64,000 nt of DNA from Desulfuromonas sp. (lineage in GTDB: Bacteria; Desulfobacterota; Desulfuromonadia; Desulfuromonadales; SZUA-401), in assembly GCA_002869605.1 (NCBI GenBank), contig PKUI01000170.1, positions 1 through 64,000 on the forward strand, given 5' to 3'. A program made the translations under genes and the position numbers. Every line of letters begins with the position of its first letter. The stretch's first letter is position 1. The notes beneath the pieces were generated by a model that ran no database searches, had not been told where the DNA came from, and saw nothing but the letters and a program-made list of their open reading frames with translations. This document shows, in pieces, positions 7,861 through 42,988 of this stretch.

Positions 7861-7879
7861 GAAACATCCACGATGTTTC
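7861..7879. promoter_or_regulatory. Perfect palindrome upstream of the efflux operon (candidate operator)
   Basis: GAAACATC-cac-GATGTTTC is a perfect 8-bp inverted repeat ending 25 bp before the proposed kinase start, in the divergent region between the efflux operon and the small-protein/Spy-like unit. It is a plausible binding site for the operon's own response regulator, but OmpR-type regulators more often use direct repeats, so this is tentative. Confidence 0.4.
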
Positions 7880-7904
7880 GAATAAACGGAGAGACCGCGA
7901 GAAA

Positions 7905-25397: not shown

Positions 25398-25502
<105 letters not shown>

Positions 25503-25683
25503 TTGTAGGCCTTTTTTCTTTTGAGCGGAGGAGCAATGGAATTAGCAGTGGGCAATGCAAAGGAAGGGTACTCGGTGGGATAAAGACAGGAATTGGGGAT
25601 GGAACCAAACACTCAATAGCGCGACTCATTTTGTCGCCTGAGCCATTTATCCTTAATCTAGGTCATATCCGAAGGAGAACAGA

Positions 25684-26040
25684 GTGCTAAGAATCGAACT
25701 CTTATTAGCAAGGCGACTCGCGAATCTTTACTGGAGTCCCTTTAGAGAAACCACAGGCTATTATTCGCTCAAATGGTCAGAGCTAAAGTCGCTGGCAGGC
25801 GACCAAACCCTTAGAGATGATGAATTTAACGAACTCACAAGATACCTCTTGGAATTCGGATACTTAATTTCTCAAAGTAAAGATGGCGTTGTTATTTGGC
25901 ATGGGTCTTTTATCGAACCAAAGGAAATCAGTGAGTATGCGCTGAACAATGCTCTGAAACTTGCACTAGATGAGGATGAAAATGAAATAGAGAATGAGTA
26001 CCTAGAAGCCTTATCACTGAGGAATGATAATTCAGAGTGA
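25684..26040 (+). CDS. Hypothetical protein of the island
   Basis: A 118-residue protein starting with GTG, supported by GAAGGAG 8 nt upstream. The N-terminal two thirds look like a small helical or winged-helix fold (LSLKW-type 'YYSLKWSELKSLAGDQTLRDDEFNELTRYLLEFGYL' with 'VVIWHGSFI' as a possible wing). The last 30 residues are strongly acidic. No known family recognised. It is the first gene inside the left end of the island, where regulators of excision sometimes lie, but nothing in the sequence proves that role. Confidence 0.6.
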   Translation: MLRIELLLARRLANLYWSPFRETTGYYSLKWSELKSLAGDQTLRDDEFNELTRYLLEFGYLISQSKDGVVIWHGSFIEPKEISEYALNNALKLALDEDENEIENEYLEALSLRNDNSE

Positions 26041-26216
26041 TAGGGCTATATCTCAACCCCTATTCTCCCCGATCGGCAAGCGCCTCTCCACGAGTAAAAA
26101 GTCTGTGGTTAGACCCAAAAATGGTTTAGCCCGAACTGCTATAGTGCAACGGGAAGCATAAGCTGCATTGGACTCATGAATCAAATGCTAAGCTTGCATC
26201 ACCAACCCTTAGGACG

Positions 26217-27535: not shown

Positions 27536-27680
27536 CCACTTGCTGACCAGCGTTTTTTTGTTTTAAGCCCCTACTTTTCAACTGGCCATTATTGGGGGAA
27601 CTTACGATTACAATAACTGCATTGACGAACAATCGCACACTGGTTACTTAAAACTGCCCGCTGACCCTGAGAGTATACAG

Positions 27681-30242
27681 ATGGCTTCGCTTACAACTGG
27701 TTATAAAAAGAAGGCTCATGTCAAAAAATACCTGATTAGCGTTCTGCTCATTCTGTGGGCTTATAACTCCGTCTTCGCTGCAAACTTTGAACTAAACATC
27801 AAAGAAAAGCAGTGGTTGGACAAGCTCCCCCCCCTGCGCGTGGGAGTCTCAAACAGTTGGTTACCGATTAATTTTAAAGGCGATGATGCGACCCATCAAG
27901 GGATTGCTTCAGACTACATGAAATTGGTCAGTAAAAAACTCGGCCTCACGCTAAAGAGCACATTCGGTACATGGCAAGAACTGCAGAGCAAGATTAAGGC
28001 TGGAGAAATCGATCTTTTACCATCGGTAGCTTTTTCTAAAGAAAAGGTGGCCTATTTGGACTTCACCGAAGCTTATCTAGACATGCCAACAATTATCGCC
28101 ACTCGCATTGACGCCCCTCACTATCCGCATATTGACAACCTAAAAGAAGTCATTGTTGGAGTTGGCGAGAACTTTGCTATACATGCTCGGCTGAAACAAG
28201 ATTACCCTGAGATTAACACTCGGGGATATACAACAATCGAAGATGCGGTTCTTGCCCTTGACTCTGGGGAAATCGACGCGCTAGTGACCAACGCAACGGT
28301 TTACACATACTTTCAGAACAAACACCGCCTTAAGACTTCCATTCATATTAACAACACAACTCAGTACACAGATAAAATAGCGATTGGTGTGCGCCACGAG
28401 CTGGCACCCTTGGTGCCTCTTTTAAATCGGGCTTTGGCGGATATCTCTGACGACGAACGTGATTTGATCGTGGATAAGTGGGCCAATTTGAATATCCGCC
28501 ACCACATCGACTGGACTCTGGCTTGGCAGCTGGCTCTGCCGGTGGCAATATTCGTGCTGCTGATATTCTATTCGAACCGCAAGATGTCTGCTGAGATAGT
28601 AAAACGCAAAGAGTACGAAGAAAAGATTGTGTCGCAACAGAAACAACTTTTAGCTCTGTGGGGTATCTCATCGATGCTTGACGCAAGTATCAAAGAGATT
28701 TGTGACCGCGTGCTGGCAGAGATTGTTGAGCTTACTGAAAGCCCTTACGGTTTTTACGGATTCCTGGACGAGCATGAGGATGTTATGACAATTCATAGTT
28801 GGTCTGAGCAGGCTATGAATGAGTGCGTCGTTCATAATCAGCCCTTGAAGTTTCCAATATAAAAGTCCGGTATCTGGGGCAATGCCATCCGCAGCAGGAG
28901 ACCATTTATCCTTAATGACTATCAAAAAGAATGCGCCAACAAAAAAGGGGTTCCAGAAGGACATGTAACTCTGACAAGGGTTATGTCAGTCCCCATTATA
29001 GTCGATGGGAAGATTCTTGCCCTTGGGGCTGTAGCCAACAAGAAGACTGAATATCAGGATGAGGATGCTAATCAGCTGTTAGCGTTCTTGAACAGTGCTC
29101 AGATTCTGGTGCAAAGGAATCAACTACAAAGCTCACTCAGAGATAGTGAGGGGTATTATCGTCTCTTGTTCGAAGAGGCGGCACATGGGACCGCAATTGC
29201 CGATGTAGCAACAGGCGAAATCATTTCCTGCAACCGTAAGCTGGCTGAAATGATTGGCAGGACAGTCGAAGAAATCATTGGTCAACATCAGTCTTTTATT
29301 CATTTCCCTCCAGATTCATCCATGATGGAATCCCAGAGTTATTCTAAACATATGAGAGATGAGGAAGGGAAAGTCATCGAAGACCAATTATTCCACAAAA
29401 ATGGACACTTTATCGATGTAGAAATTGTGGCCAACCAACTTGATGTTTCAGGTAAAAAGGTTCTGCATGGTGTTTTCTATGATATTTCAGAGCGCAAAAA
29501 ATTGATGGAGGAGTATCGTCGTTCCGCACAACTCGCTGCCTTGGGGACTATTGCTGCAGGTGTTGCCCATGAAATCAACAATCCGATTCAGGGAATTATG
29601 AACTGTGCCTCGCTAATAGCAAGGAGCCTTGAGAACAAAGATAGAGTCAGCGATTTATCCCAGAAAATTTTGGGTGAAAGTAAGCGCGTCGCCAAAATTA
29701 CTCAAGATCTCCTCTACTATTCTAAAGATGCCCGAATCGAAATGAAAGAATCTGATATCTCCCAGATAATTGGCGGTGCCCTGACGCTGATATCGACTAA
29801 AATCAAACATCAAGGGATTTCTTTGCAGGTTGAAATCCAGAAGAATCTCCCTCTTGTGACAATTCAGCCTCAAAGTATGCAACAAGTTATTTTGAACCTT
29901 ATAGATAATGCTGCTGATGCACTTGAGGAAAAACAAGATTCGCCAGATGGTAAAGTCATTGAGGTTAAAGTATTTCTCAATGAAGAGAACTCAAATAATG
30001 GTATTGAAATCGATGTAATTGATAATGGCTGTGGAATGGCTAAAGACGTTATGAGCCGGGCTCTCGAAGCTTTCTATACGACCAAGCCCTCATCGAAGGG
30101 AACTGGGCTTGGCCTTTCAATTGTCAATGACCTCGTCAACAAAAATGGTGGTAAACTTTTCATTGAAAGCGAGGAAGGCGTTTACACAAAAATCTCAATA
30201 ATTATTCCTCTACCCAGAGCAGCACATAAAGTCAGACATTAA
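27681..30242 (+). pseudogene. Sensor histidine kinase (SBP-GAF-PAS-HisKA-HATPase) split by one in-frame stop
   Basis: Both halves are in the same frame and read as one kinase of about 853 codons. N-terminal signal/anchor, extracellular SBP_bac_3-type solute-binding domain (~45-265, 'LRVGVSNSWLPINFKG', 'AGEIDLLPSVAFS'), TM (~278-296), GAF, PAS, HisKA (GVAHEINNPIQGIMNC) and HATPase (ILNLIDNAADALEE, GTGLGLSIVNDLV). TAA at 28860-28862 falls in the GAF domain, after HNQPLKFPI and before KSGIWGNAIRSRRPF, where relatives have Glu or a similar residue; one base change (GAA to TAA) explains it. The downstream part could still be made from ATG 28983 as a soluble PAS kinase. The receiver at 30253 follows 10 bp later. 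Confidence 0.88.
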
Positions 30243-30252
30243 GGCCAATCAT

Positions 30253-30642
30253 GTGCAAAAAAAATTAACAATAATGATTGTCGAAGATGAAGAGTCTATC
30301 CGTGAATCGTTTAAGTTGTTTCTGGAGGACCTTGGTCATAATGTAATCACAGCTGACGCACCGCATCAGTGTGATGTTTACAAAGGGCACCAGTGCACTA
30401 GAAAAAAATCATGCACCGATGTACTCATCATTGACCACCACCTGCCAAACTTGCTGGGTTTAGATTTTATCGAGCAGTTGAAGGAACGTGGCTGCCAGGG
30501 AATAATCTCCAATATGCTTTTAATGTCCGGCGATGCAACTAGTATCAATCCTGATCGAGCCAGAAATTTAGGTGTTACTGTTGTGCAAAAGCCTATGACA
30601 TTTGAGTTTCTGGAAGGGTGGTTGAAAAACGTAAAGGTGTGA
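30253..30642 (+). CDS. Single-domain response regulator with a Cys-rich insertion
   Basis: A 129-residue stand-alone receiver with GTG start, 10 bp after the kinase. Acidic pocket E11-D12, phospho-acceptor D61 (DVLIIDHHLP), Ser/Thr switch (LLMSGDAT) and Lys in VVQKPMTF are all present. Between strand 2 and the phospho-acceptor is an unusual insert with Cys40, Cys48 and Cys54 (CDVYKGHQCTRKKSC). The same C-D-[VI]-Y-x-G-x-x-C pattern occurs in the frameshifted receiver at 31822. It has no output domain, so it likely acts by protein contact or phosphorelay with the upstream kinase, which is interrupted. Confidence 0.88.
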   Translation: MQKKLTIMIVEDEESIRESFKLFLEDLGHNVITADAPHQCDVYKGHQCTRKKSCTDVLIIDHHLPNLLGLDFIEQLKERGCQGIISNMLLMSGDATSINPDRARNLGVTVVQKPMTFEFLEGWLKNVKV

Positions 30643-30726
30643 CTAGGGTAGTGAAAGACTTTAAGCTAGAAAAAGTAGGATTTAAATAAAGGTTTCCTTT
30701 AGTTTATACATACCCTCATTGAGTTA

Positions 30727-30906
30727 CTAATCACTTTTAAATACCTCTTTGATTATTCGAAGCGTCTCTTGCTCCGCAATTTCATGTGATGGATAAATAG
30801 GAGGTGTTGTCAAGGCGGGCTCAGTTGAGTCGTGAGGATAGTAGAGCTCAACAGAATAATACCCTGACGCATTATCTATATTAGTTTGTACTCTAAATCT
30901 CGACAT
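30727..30906 (-). CDS. Small protein (59 residues) of the island
   Basis: An ORF with a good GGGGAAGGATT ribosome-binding site, beginning MSRFRVQTNIDNASGYYSVE and ending EVFKSD. It lies 38 bp downstream of the minus-strand receiver and is probably co-transcribed with it. Tyr-rich in the middle (GYYSVELYYP) and helical at the end. No family recognised. Confidence 0.55.
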   Translation of the reverse strand: MSRFRVQTNIDNASGYYSVELYYPHDSTEPALTTPPIYPSHEIAEQETLRIIKEVFKSD

Positions 30907-30944
30907 TGATTAATCCTTCCCCTGAGTGTCTCATTTGTTGACGC

Positions 30945-31313
30945 TCATACTTTACTCAGCAACTCCTTTTTGGTTATGTACAGCAAGCTTTCATGCCTAA
31001 TCGGCTTTGCAAGGTAATCACTGGCCCCTTGCATCCTGGCGGTAACAATCGCACGTGAGTTAAAGGCACCTGTGATCATAATAACCTTACAGGTAGGCTG
31101 TAGGGCCTTGATCACTTTAATTGCATCGAGGCCGTTATCATGGCCTAAATTGATGTCCAGATATAGCAGGTCATACTTCTCTTGCCTAAGTTGTTCTAGG
31201 CATGCTTTTAAGGTGTCGACGGTAGAAACATTGTACCCCGCATCCGTCAAAAACTCCTTAAAAGTAAAACGGATAGATTCTTCGTCATCTGCAATCAAAA
31301 TATTATTTGGCAT
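30945..31313 (-). CDS. Single-domain response regulator
   Basis: A 122-residue CheY-like receiver: acidic residues in LIADDEESIRFTF, phospho-acceptor in LLYLDINLGHDNG (Asp ~53), switch Thr in VIMITGAF, and Lys in YLAKPIRHE. Unlike the two other receivers of the island it has no Cys insert. It is on the opposite strand from the kinase/receiver pair, with a 59-residue ORF behind it. No output domain. Confidence 0.88.
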   Translation of the reverse strand: MPNNILIADDEESIRFTFKEFLTDAGYNVSTVDTLKACLEQLRQEKYDLLYLDINLGHDNGLDAIKVIKALQPTCKVIMITGAFNSRAIVTARMQGASDYLAKPIRHESLLYITKKELLSKV

Positions 31314-31821
31314 AAGACAGGCGAAGCTCCTTGTCTGAAGTATGATTTATAGATAGACAAAAATTACGCCAAAAAAATCTTTTCTACGTAAGTGCCCGTT
31401 AACAAGTAGGAAATACTCAAAAATATCCCGTCATACGAGAAAAACCTCCGTGTCAGTTGTGCCAAAAGTGCGCCCCTGTCACATGTTAAATGTCACAGCA
31501 TCTCATATCTCATTCCCAATAGTGTTCCCCCTCTCATTCCCATAATTGAGATTTAAGGCCGAATAGTTGAGCGTTTACGTACAGAATATTGGAGCAATGG
31601 TAAAATCGGCATGACTTTTGCCAAGAACTACGGTTATGGAGTATCTCTTTTATGCCATGTGCACATTATTAAAAAATGTGGGCTAGCAATTGGCTTGTGG
31701 TGGAGACCTAACTTGGTTAAGTAGGGGGGGGGCAAAATTTTGAGGTTGTCTGTGTTTTGAATGATGGTGTTCCCAGAAAATTTTTCTTTGAAATTTTTTT
31801 TAAAAGGAGAGTTGCTCAACC
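31314..31821. other. Intergenic stretch inside the island
   Basis: About 500 bp, AT-rich, with a G-run (GGGGGGGG near 31724) and poly-T tracts. No ORF with a credible ribosome-binding site. The last part must hold the promoter of the frameshifted receiver, whose AAAAGGAG site is at about 31802-31809. Confidence 0.4.
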
Positions 31822-32251
31822 ATGAAAATGCGCATTTTTGTTATTGATGATGAAGAGTGTATTCGAGATACGATGCAGTGGCATCTTGAGGATCAGGGCC
31901 ATGAGGTTCTTACAGCCCACTGCCCGTTAATTTGCGACATTTATCAAGGGTATCATTGTAAATGAAGAACATGCCTGTGGTGACATCTTGTTCATTGACT
32001 ACAAGATGCCCAAAATGACGGGTCTAGATTTTATTGAATTAATGTCTAAAAGAGGCTGCAAAGGACATCCGAGCAATAAAATCATCCTGTCGGGCAACAC
32101 TTCAGAGATTGATATGGAAAGAGTTCGTCAGGTTGGATGTCAAGTGATTCAGAAACCTGTTTCATTGGAGCAAGTGGATCAGTTTGTAGCTCAATGTCGG
32201 GAACGAATTAAACCAACGCGTGAGTTAGCTGATTTGTCTAAAAAGACATAG
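31822..32251 (+). pseudogene. Cys-insert receiver protein, frameshifted
   Basis: The frame from ATG 31822 gives 47 residues (MKMRIFVIDDEECI ... CDIYQGYHCK) and stops at TGA 31963-31965. The +1 frame continues the same domain (NEEHACGDILFIDYKMPKMTGLDFIE ... CQVIQKPVSLEQ). Restoring one base in TGTAAATGAA near 31960 rebuilds a full receiver with phospho-acceptor in LFIDYKMP and the same Cys pattern as the receiver at 30253. It is either a real one-base deletion or a base-calling error in an A-run. Confidence 0.8.
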
Positions 32252-32438
32252 CGGCATATTTAAGTGGAATGCGCTAAAGTGTCAAAGGAGAAGCTTGTCC
32301 ACGTCGGTAACTTAATCCAAGATGGAATCTTTCTTAAATGTCACCATATTTAAGAAGATCTCTAATCGGTTGTTTGTTTTGAAAAAAACTACACAGAAAT
32401 AATCGGATCATTCATCCATTAGCTTTACTATAAGCCAC

Positions 32439-32518
32439 GGACTTATAGGAGACTTTCGGGCATTTTCTTATAAGTCCTGCAGAATGTCATTCTTGGATTA
32501 TCTAAGGACTTATAAGAA
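32439..32518. repeat. Three copies of a GGACTTATA motif downstream of the integrase
   Basis: GGACTTATAGGA (32439-32450), then TTCTTATAAGTCC (32465-32477) and its exact reverse complement GGACTTATAAGAA (32506-32518). The last two form a 13-bp inverted repeat 28 nt apart. They could be arm-type integrase or excisionase sites, or a weak terminator for the integrase transcript. Confidence 0.5.
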
Positions 32519-32554
32519 GCTTTTTGCGGTGGAAATCTAATGAATCAGTGGGTA

Positions 32555-33742
32555 TCAGATCTGAAAGTCGATACCTATTTGGCGGGTTTCCTTCTCGGGC
32601 AGTTTCAACACTTTTTCGGCTAAATACTCACTCCACTCGATTAACGCCTCCTGCATTTTGTCTTCATACCGATACCTGTTGTAGATAGCTGTCACACCTT
32701 GAGGGGTATGATTCAATACTCTGCCGATTACCTCGTTTGAATATCCTATCCTCGCAATACCTGTTGCAGCAGTTCTTCTTAGATCATGGGGCCTGAAATA
32801 CTCTATCCCCATGTGCTCTATTCCCCGCCTGTGTAGTGCATGAGCCATCGACAAGGAATCGATTGGTTTATCATCCCACCGAGTCTTAATGACGTATTCT
32901 TCGCTATTCTCACCTATTAACTCCAAAGCCAATGCTGACAGGTACACTTTCTGAGTCTTACCGTTCTTCACTCGCTCCCCAGGTATGGTCCACCAGCTAC
33001 CGTTGATCTCAGATCGACTCATTTTAGCGACTTCACCTGGACGTTGACCTGTCACCAAAATCAACTTCATTCCCACCTTGAGCTTTTCGTACATTGAACT
33101 TTGATCTAAGCCGTACCAGAACTTTCTAATCTCCTCATCACTCAGCACTCGATCTCTTGCCCTATTCTTGGCTAATTGTTTCACGCCATTGATAGCAGAG
33201 AACTCGAGCAGGTCTCTCTCTACTGCAAAATTAAACATCTTCTTGATCAACCTGAGCGTGTTGTTTGATCCGATTGGTGCTCCTCGGTTGTACATTCGCT
33301 CTAGTAACTCAATGACATCCTTTTTCCTGATTTCATCTGCGTGTCGATCTTTCCAGTAAGGAAGTACATCTTGATTCAATATTCGAATATCTTCTCTAAA
33401 GCTCTTCTTCCTTGGTTTTGCCCATTTGTCCAGATATACCTCTGCAAGCTTCCCTACGGTCAATTTCGAGTCATTGGGAGGTGGTTCTGCCAGAGGGTTC
33501 ACCACCTGATCGACTAGATATTGTTTTTCACGTGCTCTTTTCCGGGCTTCTTTGATTGAAACTGCAGGGTATTTACCTAGATCAATCCAATTCTGTTGTT
33601 GCTCCCATCGGTAAGTGAATTGCCACTTCCTCATACCTTTGGGAGAGATAATAATGTAGAGTCCGTCACCTTCAGTTTTGATCTTCCGACCCTTCTCGGG
33701 CAATGGAATATTCATGATCAACCTGTCGGTAAACTTCTCCAC
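32555..33742 (-). CDS. Tyrosine-recombinase integrase (P4-like)
   Basis: A 395-residue integrase. N-terminal DUF4102-like region (GDGLYIIISPKGMRKWQFTYRW, WIDLGKYPAVSIKEARKRARE), a SAM-like core-binding domain (~95-175), and the catalytic domain with Arg in VTGQRPGEVAKM, HxxR in RPHDLRRTAATG, His in LNHTPQGVTAIY and the nucleophile Tyr in AIYNRYRY. P4-type integrases insert at the 3' ends of tRNA genes, which matches the tRNA-Thr repeats 142 bp from its start. It appears intact. Confidence 0.95.
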   Translation of the reverse strand: MEKFTDRLIMNIPLPEKGRKIKTEGDGLYIIISPKGMRKWQFTYRWEQQQNWIDLGKYPAVSIKEARKRAREKQYLVDQVVNPLAEPPPNDSKLTVGKLAEVYLDKWAKPRKKSFREDIRILNQDVLPYWKDRHADEIRKKDVIELLERMYNRGAPIGSNNTLRLIKKMFNFAVERDLLEFSAINGVKQLAKNRARDRVLSDEEIRKFWYGLDQSSMYEKLKVGMKLILVTGQRPGEVAKMSRSEINGSWWTIPGERVKNGKTQKVYLSALALELIGENSEEYVIKTRWDDKPIDSLSMAHALHRRGIEHMGIEYFRPHDLRRTAATGIARIGYSNEVIGRVLNHTPQGVTAIYNRYRYEDKMQEALIEWSEYLAEKVLKLPEKETRQIGIDFQI

Positions 33743-33883
33743 AGCATCAAACTCAGACGCAATTTACTTAGCAATGATTTGGCAGTGAAAGACACTAAAA
33801 CGGACAAAATGATGATATGGGAGAGAGAAGTGAAAATCAATATTTATGAGTTATTGCGAGCACTTAAGTGACCTAGACTACAT

Positions 33884-33957
<74 letters not shown>

Positions 33958-34427: not shown

Positions 34428-34811
34428 ATGTTGCAATCTCTCTCAGAGAAATTCTTTATCGCTGCAATCCTGTTGTTGCTTGGAGTCTCTCCCTCCTTTG
34501 CAGCCGTTGCGGCTGGGCCAGACATCCAAGGGATCACCTTCGAAGATGTCAATTACGATGGTCTCGATGATGTACATATCCGGATCGCCTTTTCTGAAGA
34601 GGACATCGAAAACTACGACATCCTTCAGACCAGCGATGGTAGCTATGTCACCGCCGCAGACCAGCCTTTGGCTGAGAAGGATTGGGACTTCAAGATCCTC
34701 GACGTCAACGAAGATGGCTACATCGATGTAGTCATTTCGGACGATGAAAGGGATACCTTCTACCTGAATAATGGTGACAACACCTTTAACATGAGACATT
34801 TGGATTACTAG
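34428..34811 (+). CDS. Small secreted protein with two calcium-type loops
   Basis: A 127-residue protein after a strong AAGGAGG site. Sec signal peptide (MLQSLSEKFFIAAILLLLGVSPSFA, cleavage ~25). The mature 100 residues carry two D-x-N-x-D-G-x-x-D loops (D40-D48 in DVNYDGLDD; D92-D100 in DVNEDGYID), the pattern of EF-hand/dockerin/FG-GAP calcium loops, in an acidic context. It is the first gene of the radical-SAM locus, 66 bp before the first radical SAM gene. It could be an extracellular partner of the repeat lipoprotein or a second substrate; neither is proven. No exact family recognised. Confidence 0.75.
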   Translation: MLQSLSEKFFIAAILLLLGVSPSFAAVAAGPDIQGITFEDVNYDGLDDVHIRIAFSEEDIENYDILQTSDGSYVTAADQPLAEKDWDFKILDVNEDGYIDVVISDDERDTFYLNNGDNTFNMRHLDY

Positions 34812-34877
34812 ATTTTTCTGGACACCCTCCAGTAATCGTTGCCAATCATGTCCCCCGTTTTTAAAAGAATTTGAATT

Positions 34878-35879
34878 ATGGCGAATGTCTTATTGACCCA
34901 AAGGTGTGTGCGCTCCTGCCCTTACTGCTTTGCAAAAGAGCACATGGAGGATTCGGTTGACCAGGAACTGTCCTGGGACAACCTGTTTTATATTGCTGAT
35001 TTTTTTGAAAGTTCGGGTGTGCGCCACATTTCACTCCTGGGGGGCGAACCGACCCTCCACTCGAACTTTGTCCAGTATGTGACCTACCTGCTCCAACGAA
35101 ATTTTCATGTCACGGTCTTCACCAGTGCGATCATGTCCACTGATAAGCTTTATCAGCTGGAACAACACCTGAAGCAGTATGGTCCCAACCAGCTCTCGTT
35201 TGTGTGCAACCTGAATGAGCCTTCGATCTCTTCTGATGAGGAGAACCAGAAACAGATCAAGTTCCTTAAGACGTTCGGGCCCTACACAACCGCCAGTTTC
35301 AATATTTATCAATTGGACTTCGACCTAAACTTCCTTGCTGATTATATTGTCAAGTACAAGATGAACCGTTCCATCCGTTTTGGTCTGGCCCACCCGATCC
35401 CCGGGCAAGAAAATGTCTGTATCGTACCGGAGGATATGCCCGAGCTGTCGAAACGGCTGTTCTCATTCGCACCCTTGCTAGAAAAAGAAAATATCTCGCC
35501 GAATTTCGACTGCGGCATGCCACTCTGTATTTTCAATGACGAGCAGCTCGGACGTCTCTTCCGCATGACCAAAGGGGAGCTCCGATTTGGATGCGGCCCA
35601 GCAATTGATATCGGGCCGGATATGTCGGTCTGGTCCTGCTTCCCGCTACATGCCCTGGAAAAGAAGTCCCTCTTCGAATTCGACAAATTTGACGATATCG
35701 CCAAATATTTTTCAGAATATCTAGGCGAGTTAAAAAAAGACAAGAATTCCGGCATCTTCAGCGAATGCAGTACGTGTAAGGAACTTATCAACAATAAATG
35801 CTCGGGTGGCTGCGTGGCTCACTACCTGTCCAGCAACCCGCAGGTTCTTACGGGGAAAAAACGAAAGTCGACCGCATGA
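34878..35879 (+). CDS. Radical SAM/SPASM peptide-modifying enzyme (first)
   Basis: A 333-residue radical SAM protein. CVRSCPYC (Cys10, Cys14, Cys17) is the CxxxCxxC motif for the SAM-binding [4Fe-4S] cluster, and ISLLGGEPTLH is the GGE motif. The C-terminal region has many Cys (212, 217, 239, 254, 297, 300, 308, 312; e.g. CSTCKELINNKCSGGC), as in SPASM/twitch domains with auxiliary clusters that modify ribosomal peptides. It lacks a recognisable RRE/PqqD domain. The TGA overlaps the start of the SPASM-only gene (ATGA), indicating tight coupling. Likely target: the Tyr-rich repeat lipoprotein of the locus. The chemistry is not readable from sequence. Confidence 0.9.
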   Translation: MANVLLTQRCVRSCPYCFAKEHMEDSVDQELSWDNLFYIADFFESSGVRHISLLGGEPTLHSNFVQYVTYLLQRNFHVTVFTSAIMSTDKLYQLEQHLKQYGPNQLSFVCNLNEPSISSDEENQKQIKFLKTFGPYTTASFNIYQLDFDLNFLADYIVKYKMNRSIRFGLAHPIPGQENVCIVPEDMPELSKRLFSFAPLLEKENISPNFDCGMPLCIFNDEQLGRLFRMTKGELRFGCGPAIDIGPDMSVWSCFPLHALEKKSLFEFDKFDDIAKYFSEYLGELKKDKNSGIFSECSTCKELINNKCSGGCVAHYLSSNPQVLTGKKRKSTA

Positions 35880-36748
35880 ATCAACCGATGCTTGTTATAC
35901 CGAATAGTGAATCCCTCTTTTCGAAATTGCGGGGGCAGTCGCTGATTGTCCGCTGTTTCCGCGAGGAAGAAATTCAAGGCATCTCCCAGGCAGCACAAGG
36001 GAATTTTCATCTGAAGGCCGTATGGCTTTCGAAGGATGCCCCGCTTTCTTCCGCGCGCCTTCACGAGAGTTGGGCCGATGTTCCTGTCGCTTTCGAAGTG
36101 ACAGGGGTCGGGGATATTCAAACCGTAATTAACATGTGCCCGTTTCTGCGCGGTCATAATATCCGCATCCTAATTCCGGGAACCTCTCAGGAGAATTTCG
36201 TTGGCCTGCGGATCCTGTCTTCCGCCGGAATCACCCCGGTGGTGACCTTGCCTTCACAAGGGATTGACTGGGAGGCGCTGAACGACCTTCTACACTACGA
36301 TGTCTACGCCAGGGTGCCCCATGCTCCGATCGAGCCGTTTGCCTATGCCGTTGATCGCTTCAGAAACAGGCAGGCCCTCGACCTTGGCCCGGTATATTTC
36401 GACAATCCGGAAGCTTATCTGCATGTCGATGAGCAAGGGCATGTTGCGACCTCGCAGAAGGCCTTGGAGAGCGGAACATTTCTCGGGCATATCGACGACG
36501 GGCTCGACAAGATATGCGCTTCCGAAGCCTACTATGCGGGCCTGAAAGGGTGGCGACAGCACTTCCTTCAGGATGACGGCTGTGCCTACTGTCCAGGGTG
36601 GCGACTCTGCATGGGGCGTTGTTCGGACTATCTCGACCAGACCCCTGAACAGTCCCCCTGTCAGGGCTTTTTTGAGAGTTTGTTCGAGGCAGTCGAGTTT
36701 GCCCAGAATAGACAACAAGAGAATGGGCCGCGCTTATGGCAGTACTGA
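35876..36748 (+). CDS. SPASM-type partner protein lacking the radical SAM Cys motif
   Basis: A 290-residue protein from ATG 35876, which overlaps the previous stop. The upstream in-frame start is rejected because it lies inside that gene. The first ~220 residues have a TIM-barrel-like alternating pattern (IRILIPGTSQENFVGLRILSSAGITPVVTL) but no CxxxCxxC. The C-terminal part has CAYCPGWRLCMGRC and a further Cys262 (Cys236, 239, 245, 249, 262), a SPASM-like cluster motif. It overlaps the next radical SAM gene by 13 bp. I read it as a degenerate radical SAM relative that serves as partner, scaffold or peptide-binding subunit. Geobacter 'GeoRSP' systems, as I recall, also pair a radical SAM with a SPASM-only protein. 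Confidence 0.75.
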   Translation: MNQPMLVIPNSESLFSKLRGQSLIVRCFREEEIQGISQAAQGNFHLKAVWLSKDAPLSSARLHESWADVPVAFEVTGVGDIQTVINMCPFLRGHNIRILIPGTSQENFVGLRILSSAGITPVVTLPSQGIDWEALNDLLHYDVYARVPHAPIEPFAYAVDRFRNRQALDLGPVYFDNPEAYLHVDEQGHVATSQKALESGTFLGHIDDGLDKICASEAYYAGLKGWRQHFLQDDGCAYCPGWRLCMGRCSDYLDQTPEQSPCQGFFESLFEAVEFAQNRQQENGPRLWQY

Positions 36749-37827
36749 TTTTCAAACCACTCGAAAAGTGCAACTCCAATTGCGTCTACTGCGACACCAT
36801 TACCAAAAAGCAGGAGAAGGTAATGGGGTACGACCTCTTGGAGCTCTTATTTAAGCGCATCGACGAATATCTGAAGAGTGCTCCCGGTGAAAACTTGGTC
36901 CTGACCTGGCACGGCGGTGAGATGTGCCTGCTCGGAGCCGAATATTTCAAGAAGGCCTATGAGCTGCAAAGGGAGATTTGCGCTGAGACGATGGGGCGAA
37001 TCTCCCATGAGGCGCAAAGCAACCTGACCCTGATCGACCAAGAGATCATTGACGTTTTCAAGCTCTTCGGCATGGGCTCCTTCGGTACGAGCTTTGATCC
37101 GCTGCCAGGCATTCGTGGCTACGGCGCCAAACGGGATTCCAAAACCTATAATCAGAATTTTTTCCGCGGAGTTGACCTGCTGGAGAAAAACGGTATGGGC
37201 TGGGGCCCTATTTATACGGTTCATCGCAAGGCACTTGACTGCGCCCCCAAGGTTTTTCACTACCTCGTCAATTTAAACCCGAGCGCTCCGCCGAAATTCA
37301 ATCTCGTCCGCGCCTACGGAAATGAAGAGAGCGAGTTTGCCATAACCGAAGAGGAATATGCCGATTTTCTCGGGGAGCTGTTTCAGATCTATTGGCCTCA
37401 TCGGGACAGGTTTGGGTCGGTTCAGCCGTTCCAAGGCTATATCGACAACATCCAGAACCCGCAGAGCGGTCTAGTGTGCGACATGATGGGCAACTGCGCC
37501 AACCAATGGCTATTCGTTGGCCCTGAAGGCGAGGCCGGGCACTGCGGCGTCGCCGGCGATTACAAGCAGTTTGAATATGGAAACATTCAGGATTTATCCT
37601 TCCAGGAGATCCTGTTTGATCCGAAACGGGACCTTTTGAAACAACGTCAGAGCGAGCTGCCCCATGGAGAATGTGGCGACTGCAGGTACTGGCGAGTCTG
37701 CCATGGCGGATGCCCGGTGTGTGCCCAGCTGCAGCACGGAACACCATTGCAGCGATCCCCAAGCTGTGTTTCGACCAAAATGTTTCTTGAAAAGTACTTT
37801 GAGCCGATCACCGGGTTGCGCTTCTGA
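36736..37827 (+). CDS. Radical SAM/SPASM peptide-modifying enzyme (second)
   Basis: A 363-residue enzyme of the anaerobic sulfatase-maturase/HxsB-like branch. KPLEKCNSNCVYCD gives Cys12, Cys16 and Cys19 for the SAM cluster; LTWHGGEMCLLG is the GGE region. The SPASM region has Cys248, 254, 270, 313, 316, 322, 326, 329 and 344 (CGDCRYWRVCHGGCPVC), enough for two auxiliary clusters. This domain set is typical of enzymes that install thioether, cyclophane or C-C crosslinks or oxidise residues in ribosomal peptides. It overlaps the SPASM-only gene. The next gene, 128 bp on, is the repeat lipoprotein, the obvious candidate substrate. Confidence 0.9.
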   Translation: MAVLIFKPLEKCNSNCVYCDTITKKQEKVMGYDLLELLFKRIDEYLKSAPGENLVLTWHGGEMCLLGAEYFKKAYELQREICAETMGRISHEAQSNLTLIDQEIIDVFKLFGMGSFGTSFDPLPGIRGYGAKRDSKTYNQNFFRGVDLLEKNGMGWGPIYTVHRKALDCAPKVFHYLVNLNPSAPPKFNLVRAYGNEESEFAITEEEYADFLGELFQIYWPHRDRFGSVQPFQGYIDNIQNPQSGLVCDMMGNCANQWLFVGPEGEAGHCGVAGDYKQFEYGNIQDLSFQEILFDPKRDLLKQRQSELPHGECGDCRYWRVCHGGCPVCAQLQHGTPLQRSPSCVSTKMFLEKYFEPITGLRF

Positions 37828-37955
37828 TCAGCCTTCGACTGTGAGCAGATGTCGAAATTGCCCCGACACGGAGCTTTTGAGCATTTGAATGAATATTATC
37901 TTCCCTAAGTTTTTTATCGTCTAAAGAGAGTGTTTAGCCTTTTTGAGGAGGTGTT

Positions 37956-38447
37956 ATGAAAAAGAAAGTTTTGACTAGCGCAGAAGCGGAAGTCCAGCAA
38001 ATGGGCTACACGCGTCGCCAGGCCTTGAAGAGAATCGCCAAGGCAGGTACCGTTGTCGCAACCGGCGGGCTCGGAGCAACGCTGGCCGCCTGTGGCGGAG
38101 GGGGAGGCTATAGTGATTACGCCAATGTCTACACTGACACCTATAGCGATACCTACACGCCATACAGTAACAGCTATACCAATTACTATGTAACCTACAC
38201 CAATTACTACGTTACTTACAGTGACACCTACACTAATAACTACACCAATTATTATGTTACCTACACAAACTACTACGTAACCTACACCAACCAGTATACA
38301 AATTACTATGTAACCTATACTAACCAATATACAAATTACTACGTAACCTATACTAACCAGTATACAAATTATTATGTTACCTATAGCTACAACAACAACT
38401 ACACTAATTATTACGTAGTATATACAAATTATTATGTATCTTATTGA
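37956..38447 (+). CDS. Tat-exported lipoprotein with Tyr/Thr/Asn repeats, candidate radical-SAM substrate
   Basis: 163 residues after a GAGGAGG site. The N-terminus is a twin-arginine signal (YTRRQALKRIAKAG, Arg20-Arg21) ending in the lipobox LAAC (Cys46), then five Gly. Residues 52-163 are a low-complexity repeat: 41 Tyr in 112 residues, nine copies of TNYYV, and 20 Tyr-x-Asn/Asp triads (YSD, YAN, YTD, YSN, YTN, YNN), with no Lys, Arg, His or Trp. Codons for identical repeats vary (Tyr TAT/TAC, Val GTA/GTT, Thr ACC/ACT/ACA), so the protein sequence, not recent DNA duplication, seems to be conserved. Tat export suits a protein modified or folded in the cytosol. Surface anchoring is inferred. 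No known family recognised. Confidence 0.85.
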   Translation: MKKKVLTSAEAEVQQMGYTRRQALKRIAKAGTVVATGGLGATLAACGGGGGYSDYANVYTDTYSDTYTPYSNSYTNYYVTYTNYYVTYSDTYTNNYTNYYVTYTNYYVTYTNQYTNYYVTYTNQYTNYYVTYTNQYTNYYVTYSYNNNYTNYYVVYTNYYVSY

Positions 38448-38511
38448 TTGTTTTGTTGGCTTTCGAATCCTACAAATTCGTTGAAGGTTTGTTGAAATTT
38501 TATACTCTGAC

Positions 38512-38556
38512 AAAGCATCGCCAAGACCCCTTTAAAAATGGGTGGCGATGCTTTTC
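38512..38556 (+). terminator. Intrinsic terminator after the repeat lipoprotein
   Basis: AAAGCATCGCCA (38512-38523) pairs with TGGCGATGCTTT (38543-38554), followed by TTCTTT. It separates the peptide and maturase unit from the sugar-modifying genes, which then need their own promoter or read-through. Confidence 0.8.
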
Positions 38557-38616
38557 TTTATCTGCCGTTTAATTGCCTGAGATGATAGGCGAAGTCCGGT
38601 TGGAGGGCCTCTAAGT

Positions 38617-40245
38617 ATGATTCTCTCGCTGAATTTTAATCATGATGGCAGCGGTGTGATTTTGAATCAGGGACACATCGCCGCTTATGTGAATACTGAA
38701 CGTTTTTCACGGATCAAAAAACACCCCGGCCTCCGCGAAGAAGACCTCGACGAACTCTTTCGCCAGGCCGGGGCCACTATCGATGACATCTCTTTTGTCA
38801 TCCTGTGCAACCATGGGATTAATTACCCCGAGTTCCTCGAAGCTTTTGGTGATAAGTACACGGATGTTCCGTTTGACTACAAACTGAGTCCTGACTTTAA
38901 ACGTGTTGAAATGCGTGGCAGGACGATTGACTGCGCTTACAATCCTGACCATTTCCTCTGTCACGCGGCAGCCTCCTACTATTTTTCTCCGTTTAATTCG
39001 GCCCTCACGTTCGCCTACGACCCGATGGGAAGTGGCGCCTATATCGGGGTGGAGAATCGCCTCTCCCCCTTCCCGCTACCGGTAACGCGGGTTGGAGCTA
39101 TTTACAGCGAAATCTCCAGGGCCATTGGTTTCGGGGGGCTGTTTGGTGCCGGGAAAACCATGGGGCTTGCCCCGCTCGGAAAAGCCGCGGCCGGCCTTAC
39201 TCCTGCGCTGTTGGAATTTGCCCAGAACCCTCTGCGGGTCGATGATATCACTCCGGTTATCGAGGAGATCCTTGACCTGGCCGCCAAGCGGGAGATTATC
39301 GTCAAGGGACATAAGGGAAAATCCTGGAACGCCGCCTCCGCCTACATCGTGCAGGAGTTTCTTGAGACCGTCTTGAAGCATGTTCTCGAACAGCTATTTC
39401 GAGCCAATCAGCGGAATAAAATGGCTGGCAAGTTGGCGGCAAATCCGAACCTGTGTCTCTCTGGAGGGACGGCACTTAATTCTGTGGCGAATGAGAAGGT
39501 GTTTCGAGCTTCAAACTTTTCAAATTTCTATGCCCATCCCGCCTGCGGAGATGATGGCACCTCGATTGGTGCGGCCCTGTATTGGTGGCACCATGTGTTA
39601 GGCCATCCGAAAATACCCAGGCAGAATTCCGAGGCGATGTATTCGGTCGCATCTTACAGCTCGACATCTATAAAGGATGCGATCCGTTCATTTGAAAACC
39701 GTGTCGAATCTTGGTCTTCGACTGATTATATTGCCGAGACAGCACAGTATATTTCTGAGGGGAAGATTGTCGGATGGTTTAACGGTGCAAGCGAAATTGG
39801 CCCACGTGCCCTAGGAAATCGTTCGATCCTGGCTGATCCTCGTCGTGCTGATATGTGTGACAAGTTAAACAAAAAGGTCAAACATCGCGAGAGCTTCCGA
39901 CCTTTTGCCCCCTCGGTTCTGTTAGAAGATGCACAAGGCTGGTTCGATGCCGTTGAGAGCCCCTACATGCTGCGCGTGGTAAGAGTCAAGAGTCGAGAAA
40001 TTCCGGCCGTCGATCATTTTGGATCGGCCAGAATCCAAACGGTCTCTGCGCAGGATAACAGCTCATATCATGCCCTGATCAAGGAGTTTAAGGACATCAC
40101 TGGTGTCCCTGCAGTTCTGAATACTTCCTTCAATGTCGGATTTGAGCCGATTGTCGAAACGCCCGAAGATGCCCTGAAGACCTTTGTTGACTCAGAACTT
40201 GATTATCTGGTTTTCCCTGGAATCATCGTTAAGAAAGCTCCTTAA
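38617..40245 (+). CDS. O-carbamoyltransferase (NodU/TobZ family)
   Basis: A 542-residue carbamoyltransferase that transfers carbamoyl from carbamoyl phosphate, through an adenylate, to a hydroxyl, usually of a sugar. N-terminal Kae1-like ASKHA fold (LSLNFNHDGSGVILNQGHIAAYVNTERFSR, HFLCHAAASYYFSPF, LCLSGGTALNSVANEKV, HPACGDDGTSIGAAL). C-terminal Carbam_trans_C domain with GWFNGASEIGPRALGNRSILADPR and HRESFRPFAPSVL. All key blocks are present and the length is normal. It stands 2 bp before the glycosyltransferase gene, so the two probably act on the same glycan. Link to the upstream radical-SAM genes rests on proximity and shared orientation. Confidence 0.93.
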   Translation: MILSLNFNHDGSGVILNQGHIAAYVNTERFSRIKKHPGLREEDLDELFRQAGATIDDISFVILCNHGINYPEFLEAFGDKYTDVPFDYKLSPDFKRVEMRGRTIDCAYNPDHFLCHAAASYYFSPFNSALTFAYDPMGSGAYIGVENRLSPFPLPVTRVGAIYSEISRAIGFGGLFGAGKTMGLAPLGKAAAGLTPALLEFAQNPLRVDDITPVIEEILDLAAKREIIVKGHKGKSWNAASAYIVQEFLETVLKHVLEQLFRANQRNKMAGKLAANPNLCLSGGTALNSVANEKVFRASNFSNFYAHPACGDDGTSIGAALYWWHHVLGHPKIPRQNSEAMYSVASYSSTSIKDAIRSFENRVESWSSTDYIAETAQYISEGKIVGWFNGASEIGPRALGNRSILADPRRADMCDKLNKKVKHRESFRPFAPSVLLEDAQGWFDAVESPYMLRVVRVKSREIPAVDHFGSARIQTVSAQDNSSYHALIKEFKDITGVPAVLNTSFNVGFEPIVETPEDALKTFVDSELDYLVFPGIIVKKAP

Positions 40246-40247
40246 TC

Positions 40248-42251
40248 ATGATTACCCTATCAGTCAACTCGAGGACAGTCGTAAGGCACCTGCCACCCAA
40301 TACCCCCACTCAGATTCTTATTGCGCGTCACGGTGGAATGGGAGATAGAGTCCAATTCCAGGCGATTGTGGAAGACGCCCTCCAGAAAAGAGGGGCCCAG
40401 TTTAAAAGAGTTGTCGCGGCCATCCCTCACCACGCAGGTGATTATGATGCCCATTCCTACACTTCATCTCCCGACGAGATCTGGGTTGTTCCCCAGGCCA
40501 AGGATGTTGACAAATTTCTGAAAGAATTCACGACCTTGGCTCGCACCATTCTTCCGGAGGTCGAGCAGTTTGAATTTGTCATGTATGACAGGCCTGCCGA
40601 CCCGGAAGACCTTGAGCGGCATGAGATCAATTTTCTTGACCACCATGAGGTTCTAACGGGGTTGGCTGCAAAAGATATCTACCCGGTCTTTACCGTTGGG
40701 GTTGATGCATACTCGAGGGCCGACACCTTACTAAAGGGCGCTGGAACCTCTGATCCAACCGGACCTTTGGTGGCGATGCATTGTCGGCTACAGTGCCCCC
40801 AGACGCCATCTGGTGGAGTTAAAAACCCGGACCCCGAAGACTTTATTTCAGCGATACGCTTTCTCCGTGAAAACTTAAAGGCCCGAATTGTTCTTTTAGC
40901 TGGCGATGAAGACTTGCCCGCCGAGCTTGAGAGCCTGGTTCATTTGCGTGTTCCGCAAGACCAATCTTTGCAACTCCCTGCTGCGATCCTTTCCTGCTGT
41001 GATTTGTTTATTGGAGGGGACTCGGGACCGATTCATCTTGCTGCTGCCGTTGGCCTCCCGTCGATCATAATTAGGCAAAACAACCCCTCCTGGATTCAGG
41101 GCCCTTTCTGCCCAGATTCTATGGCAACGCATATCCTTGCTACTTCGACCAACGAGCCGGAAAGGGGGTTGAGGTTTTCCCCCGAGAACCTCCTGGAGAC
41201 GGCTCAACTCATGCTTAAAGATGAGGAGATGCCTAAAAAGAAAGGAAAAGGCAAGAAGAAATCTGCGCCGAATGATGAAGTTGAGATCTGCTACCTGATG
41301 TTCAATCACGGCTGGGAAGAGTTTCTTGTCCAAAGAAAACGCCCCAATCTCAATGCAGAGTACAAAACCTCACCACCACAGCGGCAATACCTGAAATATT
41401 TGCGCAATTCCCTTGAAACCTTGGTGCTTTTTGGAGCGATCAAGAATTTCCATGTGAAAATTAGAGTTCTGGAATTGCTCGAGAACAACTTTTCCCATGA
41501 GGTCGAGGCTTTGCTGCAAGCAGTTCTGCCGTCAGGTACGTTCAGTATTGATAGAATACCCCTTGCACGCGTATCGCATCTGCTTGATTTTGAAATGAAT
41601 CAGCCGCAGGGGGGGCACATATCCCCCAATAAAATTCATGAGTGGCTTATATATCAGGCGATTATCGAAGGGGAACGGGAATCCGTTTTTGTGGTCGATG
41701 TGGATACCCTGTTTCTGGCTCCGGGATTTATTGAAAACATCGTATCTGTACTGAAAAGCTCGAAAGATTTAATGCTGGCCTCTTTTGTCGACGGTTCAAG
41801 ATTTGTTAACAGGGAGCCGGGTGGCTTTGTGATTCGGGATAGATTGCACTCGGTATTTTTGGCGATCAATCGTAAAAAACTCCAGTCGCAGATTGATCTT
41901 CAGAAAGACATTGATCTGCAATTAAATTTTTTCGATCGCGTGAAATTAATTAGATCGGACGTTGTTCGGAAGTATTACGAGGAAACCTGTCATTCTGATT
42001 GTTTGTCGTTTCTTACGGAGCAAATTTTCCAGTTAAACAATGGTCGATCCTTTCTGAACTTAAACCATATATCTCCTTCTTTTTTTGAGGGGGATGCCCT
42101 GACGATTATCAATAAGGACTTTTTCCACGGCAAATACAGTGATAGAAGTATTTTACAGGGCCTCGATAATCACCTCGACAAAGGACCAGTTACCCGTAAA
42201 AACCTGACCCGAGCGATGAACTTTGTTTCAAGCCTACCCGTAAACATATAG
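40248..42251 (+). CDS. Two-domain glycosyltransferase (GT9-like plus DxD domain)
   Basis: A 667-residue protein. Residues ~1-325 resemble GT9/heptosyltransferases, with the sugar-nucleotide region LFIGGDSGPIHLAAAVGLPSIII (~253-275). A Lys-rich linker (KKKGKGKKK, ~330-338) leads to a second domain (~345-667) with VVDVDTLFLAPGF, a DxD motif (Asp484-x-Asp486) typical of metal-dependent GT-A glycosyltransferases. The fusion suggests sequential addition of two sugars. No transmembrane segment is seen, so it acts in the cytosol, where the repeat protein (rich in Thr, Ser, Asn and Tyr hydroxyl or amide acceptors) would also be before Tat export. The acceptor is unproven; it could also be a lipid-linked or LPS sugar. 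Confidence 0.82.
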   Translation: MITLSVNSRTVVRHLPPNTPTQILIARHGGMGDRVQFQAIVEDALQKRGAQFKRVVAAIPHHAGDYDAHSYTSSPDEIWVVPQAKDVDKFLKEFTTLARTILPEVEQFEFVMYDRPADPEDLERHEINFLDHHEVLTGLAAKDIYPVFTVGVDAYSRADTLLKGAGTSDPTGPLVAMHCRLQCPQTPSGGVKNPDPEDFISAIRFLRENLKARIVLLAGDEDLPAELESLVHLRVPQDQSLQLPAAILSCCDLFIGGDSGPIHLAAAVGLPSIIIRQNNPSWIQGPFCPDSMATHILATSTNEPERGLRFSPENLLETAQLMLKDEEMPKKKGKGKKKSAPNDEVEICYLMFNHGWEEFLVQRKRPNLNAEYKTSPPQRQYLKYLRNSLETLVLFGAIKNFHVKIRVLELLENNFSHEVEALLQAVLPSGTFSIDRIPLARVSHLLDFEMNQPQGGHISPNKIHEWLIYQAIIEGERESVFVVDVDTLFLAPGFIENIVSVLKSSKDLMLASFVDGSRFVNREPGGFVIRDRLHSVFLAINRKKLQSQIDLQKDIDLQLNFFDRVKLIRSDVVRKYYEETCHSDCLSFLTEQIFQLNNGRSFLNLNHISPSFFEGDALTIINKDFFHGKYSDRSILQGLDNHLDKGPVTRKNLTRAMNFVSSLPVNI

Positions 42252-42355
42252 CAAGGTCGTTAGTTTTAGATTCTTATGATACTCCCGACTTAGGTAGTCA
42301 GTTTATACTTCTCTGCCGAGGAAGGGGGTTTCATAGTGCAACATGAGAGGCATTG

Positions 42356-42988
42356 ATGGTCGATAAATCTATCTGCCTATTCCTCTGCATATTCCTTCTA
42401 AGTGCATGTTCCACCAAAAAAGTTACGTTCACTTCGTCTCCCCCTGGAGCCAGGATATCCGCCGGAGAGCAGAGCTGTACGACTCCCTGTTCTCTCCATC
42501 TCAACAATGAAATCTCCGCGGCACAAATCATAGGCCCCGGCTGGGAGACACGTGCTGTTCAGCTCCCTGAAATGGGGAACGGAGAGATGGCAGCAACATC
42601 TTTTCTAGAAGGGGGCAAATGGGGTCTGGGAGGAATCGGCGCCGCCTGCACCATTGTGGGGCTCGTAGGCTTCGGCCTGGTCGAACTGGATGAAGATAGT
42701 GACAGCGAGTTGAAACAACTCAAACTTTATTCATTGATCACTACCGGCGTCGGCGTCGGGTTCATTTGGCTTGCAGACTTGGCCAACGAATCAAAACCGG
42801 ACAGTTTCAAAGTACATGTTGATTTTTTCAACGAATTGATCCCGGACAACCAGCAACCAGCATCGCCCATTCCCCCAACAGACGCCCCCCTTGAACCTTC
42901 CAGCTCCGATCTTTCCGAGGACAATCTTTTCGAACGGATCCAGCAGTTGAACTCAGGAACGGACCGATACACCAAAGAAGACCGTTGA
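42356..42988 (+). CDS. Small lipoprotein with PEGA-like segment
   Basis: 210 residues from ATG 42356, after AGAGG; an in-frame TTG just upstream is less likely. Lipoprotein signal with lipobox LLSAC. The segment VTFTSSPPGARISAGEQSCTTPCSLHL is PEGA-like (PxGAxI...G...G.TP). A hydrophobic Gly-rich pair of helices follows (GGIGAACTIVGLVGFGLVEL and LYSLITTGVGVGFIWLADLA), then a Pro/Ser/Asp-rich tail. Many small surface lipoproteins share this layout; the role is unknown. Same strand as the radical-SAM and glycosylation genes, 104 bp after them, so it may close that locus. Confidence 0.75.
   Translation: MVDKSICLFLCIFLLSACSTKKVTFTSSPPGARISAGEQSCTTPCSLHLNNEISAAQIIGPGWETRAVQLPEMGNGEMAATSFLEGGKWGLGGIGAACTIVGLVGFGLVELDEDSDSELKQLKLYSLITTGVGVGFIWLADLANESKPDSFKVHVDFFNELIPDNQQPASPIPPTDAPLEPSSSDLSEDNLFERIQQLNSGTDRYTKEDR

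Follow-up and report, generated by a model that had tools for sequence, protein, structure and literature searches.

Most of the characterized peptide maturases of the radical S-adenosylmethionine (rSAM) type serve to produce antibiotics, signals, or cofactors. Here we analyze a locus at positions 34,428 to 42,988 of a 64,000-nucleotide stretch of Desulfuromonas sp. DNA (contig PKUI01000170.1; the whole stretch is hereafter the window), where rSAM genes lie beside a gene for a tyrosine-rich repeat protein. The nearest described systems are the triceptides (XncB, OscB, MscB, YxdB, and YhhB), which likewise place an rSAM/SPASM enzyme beside a ribosomal substrate with repeated aromatic-x-acceptor motifs. 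PMC11002830 describes their cross-links as bonds between an aromatic residue i and the beta-carbon of the i+2 residue, which may be Asn, Asp, Arg, Ser, or Ala; the pairs include Tyr-Asp (YxdB), Tyr-Arg (YhhB), Trp-Asn/Arg/Asp, and Phe-Asn/Ser. In contrast to those small peptide natural products, the substrate here is an exported repeat protein of the twin-arginine translocation (Tat) type, accompanied by two rSAM enzymes predicted to be active, a dead one, and a family 9 glycosyltransferase (GT9), and no enzyme model scores above its cutoff. Also comparable are the His-Xaa-Ser system (HxsB/HxsC), which, as described in an earlier note on this DNA, combines two rSAM enzymes with a repeat protein, although the repeat here is Tyr-based, and the autotransporter heptosyltransferases TibC and AAH, where a GT9-fold enzyme with four Cys near its C-terminus is found beside the secreted protein that it modifies. 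The earlier note knew of no described system with this gene set, and we likewise found no description of it among the open-licence PMC papers listed in our searches.

Sequence comparisons place the locus in a genuine system that spans several phyla. Its core comprises rSAM_A, a "SPASM-only" protein, rSAM_B, and a Tyr-rich repeat protein of Tat type, commonly joined by a GT9 glycosyltransferase. Taken as a whole, we hold it to be rather probable that this is a horizontally moving maturation system in which the repeat protein is cross-linked, glycosylated, and exported through Tat.

The rSAM cassette and its tyrosine-repeat partner

The genes named in the earlier note are present in the window, all on the forward strand. 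The first maturase gene of the cassette, rSAM_A (34878..35879; PF04055, 54.8 bits), carries CX3CX2C at C10, C14, and C17 together with a C-terminal Cys cluster, as seen in an alignment with 10 relatives of 41-54% identity. The SPASM-only gene (35876..36748; start judged from relatives to be 35876, MNQPMLV...) overlaps the rSAM genes on either side. Its product retains four C-terminal Cys (C236, C239, C245, and C262) and is better described as an rSAM-fold protein without the CX3CX2C SAM-cluster motif, a predicted pseudoenzyme partner (pseudo-rSAM). The rSAM/SPASM peptide maturase rSAM_B (36736..37827) matches PF04055 with 30.0 bits (cutoff 29.5) and PF13186 with 24.2 (cutoff 21.5). Finally, 37956..38447 encodes the putative substrate, a 163 amino acid protein (MKKKVLTSAEAEVQQMGYTRRQALKRIAKAG...LAAC, then YTNYYVT-type repeats) with a Tat-type signal, a twin-arginine/leader motif RRQALKRIA (38013..38039), a lipobox LAAC (38082..38093) with predicted lipidation at Cys46, and a Tyr-rich repeat region of YTNYYVT units (38109..38444). 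Tyr makes up 37% of its mature part. Each of the seven exact YTNYYVT copies is encoded by a different DNA sequence, and of the 130 codon differences among the nine window heptads, 115 are synonymous and 15 non-synonymous; the window repeats are thus maintained at the protein level. As a separate observation, the last ~20 residues of the window rSAM_A (35800-35879) do not align with its relatives, most of which end in an [ND]E...R..EI-type motif, and a different frame near this end is possible.

Relatives were gathered with rSAM_A or the SPASM-only protein, and the repeat protein had no part in the choice of loci. Of the 22 in-group loci (L001-L010, L021, L037-L046, and the window), 19 contain the repeat protein, so that the pairing proposed in the earlier note extends across phyla. 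An automatic criterion was set up with substrates already known; it requires an RR-type motif, a hydrophobic stretch, and a minimum of 7 Tyr within 50 residues. By this measure 18 of the 22 loci have a substrate close to rSAM_A, and the remainder of the 449 kb surveyed, which takes in the outgroup loci, has none. The L005 substrate (TTRREALIRMA...YSSGYSSAY), missed by the regular expression, was added by reading. In L004 the contig ends after 67 residues of the substrate (MRREALKRIA...SSCEPYSDYNDYSDY), whereas in L006 it stops within rSAM_B and no substrate occurs in 3.4 kb upstream. L007 has neither a nearby substrate nor rSAM_B; its genome carries rSAM_B on a second contig (L066), directly after a twin-Arg/Tyr-repeat gene (GRRAALKRIA...GYGVSGDYSD). 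L043 ends past rSAM_A and L040 within the SPASM-only gene, both with the substrate upstream. Depending on the locus, the substrate gene precedes rSAM_A, follows GT9, or is encoded on the opposite strand (L037), and thus the loci are not one frozen neighborhood. In L044, two different Tyr-repeat substrates stand in tandem ahead of one cassette (7001-7480 and 7652-8026, rSAM_A strand).

These data bear on whether the repeat protein is a mere neighbor, with some other peptide or a small molecule as the target of the maturases. Such a reading could draw on L006 and on the distant rSAM_A relatives L047-L050, which have no twin-Arg/Tyr substrate in the stretches examined, so that the enzyme family is broader than the Tyr-repeat substrate. 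We nevertheless consider it highly unlikely: the substrate accompanies the cassette in 19 of 22 loci (and, cut short, in L004) with differing positions and orientations, it remains with rSAM_B where the cassette is split (L007/L066), and no other shared small open reading frame (ORF) occurs among the neighbors listed for the loci.

The signal was compared in a set of 24 substrates (20 from the loci and 4 found by a repeat-protein search), outside of which stand L004, being cut, and L066, found later. Consistent with the Tat signal proposed earlier, 23 of the 24 carry a twin Arg in an RR-x-A-[LIM] motif, L001 having CR; the motif continues with Ala-[LIM] after the twin Arg, whereas the classic Tat motif continues with Phe-Leu. 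The KRIA tail is similar among substrates, not strict. A lipoprotein anchor is predicted for the window substrate from its LAAC lipobox, but in 11 of the 24 substrates the stretch examined for a lipobox is free of Cys, which indicates that lipid anchoring is not universal.

A word-based search with the SPASM-only protein found at least 15 proteins, including one relative named Planctomycetota, and a search of genome contigs with its alignment gave 10 loci. Viral contigs gave no confirmed match with the SPASM-only alignment or with rSAM_A, and phages gave no match with rSAM_A. The rSAM_A alignment (A4), run over whole genomes in samples that overlap one another and contain genomes known beforehand to be positive, matched 5/295 genomes in the phylum of genome G001, 4/296 in the phylum of G002, 4/98 in the class of G010, 1/150 in the order of G009, 1/398 in the phylum of G007, and 10/297 in the phylum of G006 (6 above 500 bits, 4 at 181-337); the G001 genome has two copies. 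Among 8000 scored clusters in the A4 protein search, 1030 reached E <= 1e-60, a threshold that lets in rSAM_A cousins as far off as L047. The 120 listed of these clusters have generic names, where any are present, and their sources include Nitrospirota, Thermodesulfobacteriota, Bacteroidota, Gemmatimonadota, and Alphaproteobacteria.

The cassette apparently moves horizontally, since the rSAM_A tree joins loci of different phyla (L005 with L042, L037 with L006, and L003 with L010; L042 shares its phylum with G006, which is titled Geobacter). A near-identical GYGVSGDY repeat was also seen in loci of different groups (L009, 8574-8966; L040, 7478-7840; L066, 6538-7050), the L009 and L066 genomes being titled Proteobacteria/Alphaproteobacteria and L040 belonging to the class of G010; this sharing suggests transfer of the gene set. 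Two more distant stretches were noted. L047 (8432-13799) holds a cousin cassette with rSAM_A', rSAM_B', a weak SPASM-only relative (52 bits), GT9 genes, one of which passes PF01075, and an upstream 144 amino acid secreted-looking ORF; no twin-Arg/Tyr protein was seen in this cassette. L062 (NZ_CP128402.1, a plasmid of Candidatus Chlorohelix) has one distant rSAM_A relative (32% identity). The surrounding stretch contains three annotated radical SAM genes, of which the match is one, along with a WD40 protein and hypothetical proteins.

Repeat grammar and the predicted cross-link

Tyr accounts for 36% of the 1867 mature residues in the 24 substrates, and the other residues vary by locus. In the 345 Y-x-x triplets without a second Tyr, N/D/R/S occupies +2 in 82% and +1 in 47%, and Thr/Val/Ile residues number 102 at +1 against 25 at +2. 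When non-Tyr residues were shuffled, N/D/R/S at +2 had z values of 12.1 (24 substrates) and 12.7 (18 substrates, after dropping 6 near-duplicates), and the other offsets from -2 to +4 gave -3.1 to 4.6; these values are only descriptive, because the residue set was chosen after the counts had been seen and tandem copies are not independent. Entropy is lower at +2 than at +1 in 18 of the 24 substrates, higher in 4, and equal in 2. The triplets themselves differ, with Y-T-N in the window, Y-S-S and Y-T-S in L042, Y-S-R in L044, and Y-G-D in L045, and in L046, 19 of the 24 triplets have N at +2 and the middle position takes 11 different residues. Clustering of acceptors on the rSAM_A tree, with all label groups, was matched in 0 of 200 shuffles, and that of the Ser group in 0 of 500 on both the rSAM_A and rSAM_B trees.

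Since this grammar and the enzyme neighborhood resemble those of the triceptides, we favor a cyclophane between Tyr and the residue at i+2; the likeness is one of grammar and neighborhood, not demonstrated membership, and the i/i+2 pattern makes the cross-link reading specific and testable. Alternatively, Tyr may be modified otherwise, through aryl or ether bonds between Tyr residues, by oxidation of Tyr, or by cleavage of the backbone at Tyr, with a +2 preference that is structural and not catalytic. Tyr is what all repeats have in common, and YY pairs are many (203 of the 662 Tyr that have a following residue). We regard this alternative as unlikely, given that the Tyr of L009, L040, and L066 are mostly spaced six apart with no YY, and that the frequency of beta-branched residues at +1 and their rarity at +2 are left unexplained by a simple Tyr-Tyr reaction.

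Several observations weigh against the cyclophane reading and the wider scheme around it. In the window heptad only one of the three Tyr fits (Y-T-N), the others being Y-Y-V and Y-V-T, and the window is among the four substrates in which +2 is more variable than +1. The commonest triplet of L009 and L040 is Y-G-V, and L002 and L008 are over half Tyr (55-58%), a composition that also favors other Tyr chemistry. Acceptor clustering on the rSAM_B tree, with all label groups, was matched in 40 of 200 shuffles, and the N/D/R/S set is itself post hoc. Without the twin-Arg requirement, Tyr-rich segments number 34 near and 30 elsewhere (all six frames), and the L001 substrate lacks the twin Arg. The SPASM-only protein has just 153-154 residues in L010, L039, and L041, L009 has no GT9, and the window GT9 protein is of a different type. 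Lastly, rSAM_B is no nearer to the cyclophane enzymes than to the sulfatase maturase, by score or by fold.

Maturase and glycosyltransferase families

In the SPASM region of rSAM_B, seven Cys are invariant in 10/10 aligned rows, and the eighth is shifted by one in L003 and L010. Like the triceptide maturases, rSAM_B combines an rSAM with a SPASM domain (PF04055 and PF13186 both passed), and the substrate has the aromatic-x-acceptor motif, with the residue set chosen post hoc and L009/L040 mainly Y-G-V. Its best-scoring NCBIfam models, all below cutoff, include those of the sulfatase maturase, DynA, DarW, DarE, TIGR04083, GrrM/OscB, and AmcB. The cyclophane maturase profiles fall short (score/cutoff: GrrM/OscB 75.3/310, AmcB 74.3/425, YhhB 51.5/445, XyeB 33.2/450, and FxsB 30.9/370). 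DynA, DarW, and DarE are next-best profile matches, likewise below cutoff; dynobactin is a peptide antibiotic, and these systems make peptide antibiotics whereas an exported repeat protein is found here. DarE installs C-C and ether cross-links on Trp, according to PMC9055067.

The relation to anaerobic sulfatase maturases raises another alternative, in which rSAM_B would be a sulfatase-maturase-like oxidase that converts Ser (or Cys) of the repeats to an aldehyde, elaborated by GT9 or other groups. Its nearness to the sulfatase maturase family would allow this; membership was rejected, TIGR03942 giving 124.1 of 349.45 bits. Unlike anSME and ChlB, for which the rSAM_B score is far below cutoff, rSAM_B adjoins no sulfatase gene in the window, and the substrate has no conserved Cys/Ser site. 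Ser amounts to only 5-6% in L045 and the window and is outside the six commonest residues of L046, and Cys is 0.5% overall, while Tyr is in all repeats, so we judge this oxidase reading quite improbable.

Other candidate families were also rejected. The His-Xaa-Ser profiles stayed below cutoff (HxsB 54.5/370 with rSAM_B, HxsC 20.6/267.9 with rSAM_A), and the 24 substrates, with His at 1.1% of mature residues, show no His-x-Ser repeats. The geopeptide maturase model TIGR04280 gave 31.8/400. A viperin-like, defensive role of rSAM_A was dropped, the pVip match (46 bits) being confined to the first 99 residues.

The glycosyltransferase, which the earlier note counted in the gene set, proved to be a regular part of it: a GT9 of the type captured by our profile A5 occurs in 16 of the 18 loci with sequence beyond rSAM_B, and rSAM_B and GT9 form a single polypeptide in four (L037, L044, L045, and L046). 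A Pfam scan covering L001, the window, the L046 fusion, and one L047 gene gave PF01075 scores (cutoff 22) of 34.4 for L001, 29.9 for the window protein, and 15.7, below cutoff, for the L046 fusion, which has 287 bits with the A5 profile. The window protein (40248..42251) has two parts, an N-terminal GT9 domain and a C-terminal half with no Pfam match; it occupies the place of the relatives' GT9 gene and is unmatched by the A5 profile. Similarity between its C-terminal half and an ORF upstream of rSAM_A in L006 was not significant. A second rSAM_B-like gene (411 bits) lies between rSAM_B and GT9 in L042 (11461-12567).

Assignment of GT9 as a TibC-type protein heptosyltransferase was rejected. 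TibC has Cys at 339, 342, 358, and 370 according to PMC4358343. The L001 GT9 has C-X5-C-X12-C-X7-C in place of the TibC iron-finger spacing C-X2-C-X15-C-X11-C, and the fold match does not discriminate TibC from WaaF. Because the Cys spacing differs from that of TibC and WaaF fits equally well, we claim just GT9.

Variable domains, neighboring genes, and proposed pathway

In three of the 22 loci (L010, L039, and L041), all from Chlorobia, the substrate has a further C-terminal domain, Lcl_C (PF07603; 44.9 bits in L010 and 41.4 in L039), assigned in L041 via the last 330 bases, which are 87% identical to L039. PF07603 was formerly named DUF1566. In PMC4159848, DUF1566 is reported as the most frequent domain among the diversity-generating retroelement (DGR) targets of that study. 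Comparison of template repeat (TR) and variable repeat (VR) covered L039 and L041 of these three substrates. At its 3' end, the L039 gene matches a TR on another contig of its genome (L057; TR at 1062-1212, reverse transcriptase frame with IGNLTSQ at 1237-2520), and 23 of the 27 differences between the L039 VR and the L057 TR fall at template adenines, which are 51 of the 151 bases (p 5e-8); in the target gene beside the L057 reverse transcriptase, 19 of 20 differences do so. The signal is weaker in L041, with 27/43 at adenines against L057 (p 9e-5) and 22/45 against its own genome's L054 (p 0.003). DGRs were thus seen in two Chlorobia-class genomes (L057 and L054), with a template resembling the Lcl_C end of a substrate on another contig.

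The placement of the template on another contig suggests that a DGR acts in trans on the Tyr-repeat substrate. The Tyr-rich part can thus carry a variable domain, suggesting that in Chlorobia the Tyr repeat is a display stalk. As with other DGR proteins bearing DUF1566/Lcl_C, these substrates end in the domain and one has a clear TR/VR divergence; unlike them, the domain here sits on a Tyr-repeat stalk beside maturases, and in only those three loci.

Three further genes of the window are adjacent to or within the locus: a small secreted FG-GAP/EF-hand-like (calcium-loop) protein (34428..34811; PF13517, 32.1 bits, cutoff 26.9), a NodU-like carbamoyltransferase (38617..40245; PF16861, 214 bits; PF02543, 101 bits), seen in the window only, and a lipoprotein-like ORF with a TTG start (42353..42988), which has no family above cutoff. 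The earlier note had listed these with the locus; none has a counterpart among the neighbors listed for other loci, and they were dropped as core parts.

The G+C content of the cassette is below that of the outer flanks of the window. Upstream, window positions 25398-33928 likely hold an integrative element in tRNA-Thr(CGT), with genes named by eye. The tRNA gene lies at 25398-25473, its 3' end recurs as an exact 45-bp copy at 33884-33928, and an integrase-like gene occupies 32555-33742 on the minus strand; the interior has transposase-like and histidine-kinase/response-regulator-like genes. The element stops 0.5 kb short of the cassette, which begins that distance past the 45-bp copy.

We propose the following pathway. 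The precursor would carry an N-terminal RRxA[LIM]KR-type motif as a Tat signal, which is probably also a recognition leader, followed by the tandem Tyr repeats. In the cytosol, rSAM_B would modify the repeats, aided by rSAM_A and by the dead rSAM-fold protein, a likely scaffold or substrate-binding partner. The most likely products would be three-residue cyclophanes in which the Tyr ring is bonded to the beta-carbon of i+2 (N/D/R/S by locus), to which the GT9 enzyme, fused to rSAM_B in some genomes, would add a sugar. The stiffened, glycosylated repeat would then leave via Tat and stay at the envelope as a stalk, in some cases as a lipoprotein, and in Chlorobia it would display a variable Lcl_C domain of DGR type. 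Computation establishes the linkage of the genes, the fusion, the repeat grammar, the assigned folds, and the TR/VR signature; we infer the reaction chemistry, which sugar is added and where, the sequence in which the steps occur, the location at the surface, and the role as a stalk. The earlier interpretation of a cross-linked or oxidized, sugar-decorated, surface-anchored repeat protein is thus partly supported.

More tentatively, and with some doubt on our part, a single rSAM-glycosyltransferase polypeptide might cross-link Tyr to i+2 and glycosylate in one pass, with the dead rSAM as scaffold and a folded rod exported by Tat as a surface stalk, DGR-tipped in Chlorobia. If true, such stapled, glycosylated Tyr ladders would represent a novel class of structural proteins formed post-translationally, as opposed to a peptide natural product.

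From the comparisons made here, the finding is real and goes beyond what the earlier note could show, with a conserved cassette, a Tyr-repeat substrate in several phyla, a fused maturase-glycosyltransferase, and a grammar that points to a specific reaction. In this family, the product of the rSAM enzymes appears to be a structural repeat protein that is exported, and in some loci the glycosyltransferase forms one polypeptide with rSAM_B. The natural repeats with different acceptors (N, S, R, and D) form a set for comparing substrate grammar with enzyme specificity, and the family offers an rSAM-fold pseudoenzyme that retains four C-terminal cysteines, as well as a link between modification resembling that of ribosomally synthesized and post-translationally modified peptides and DGR display.

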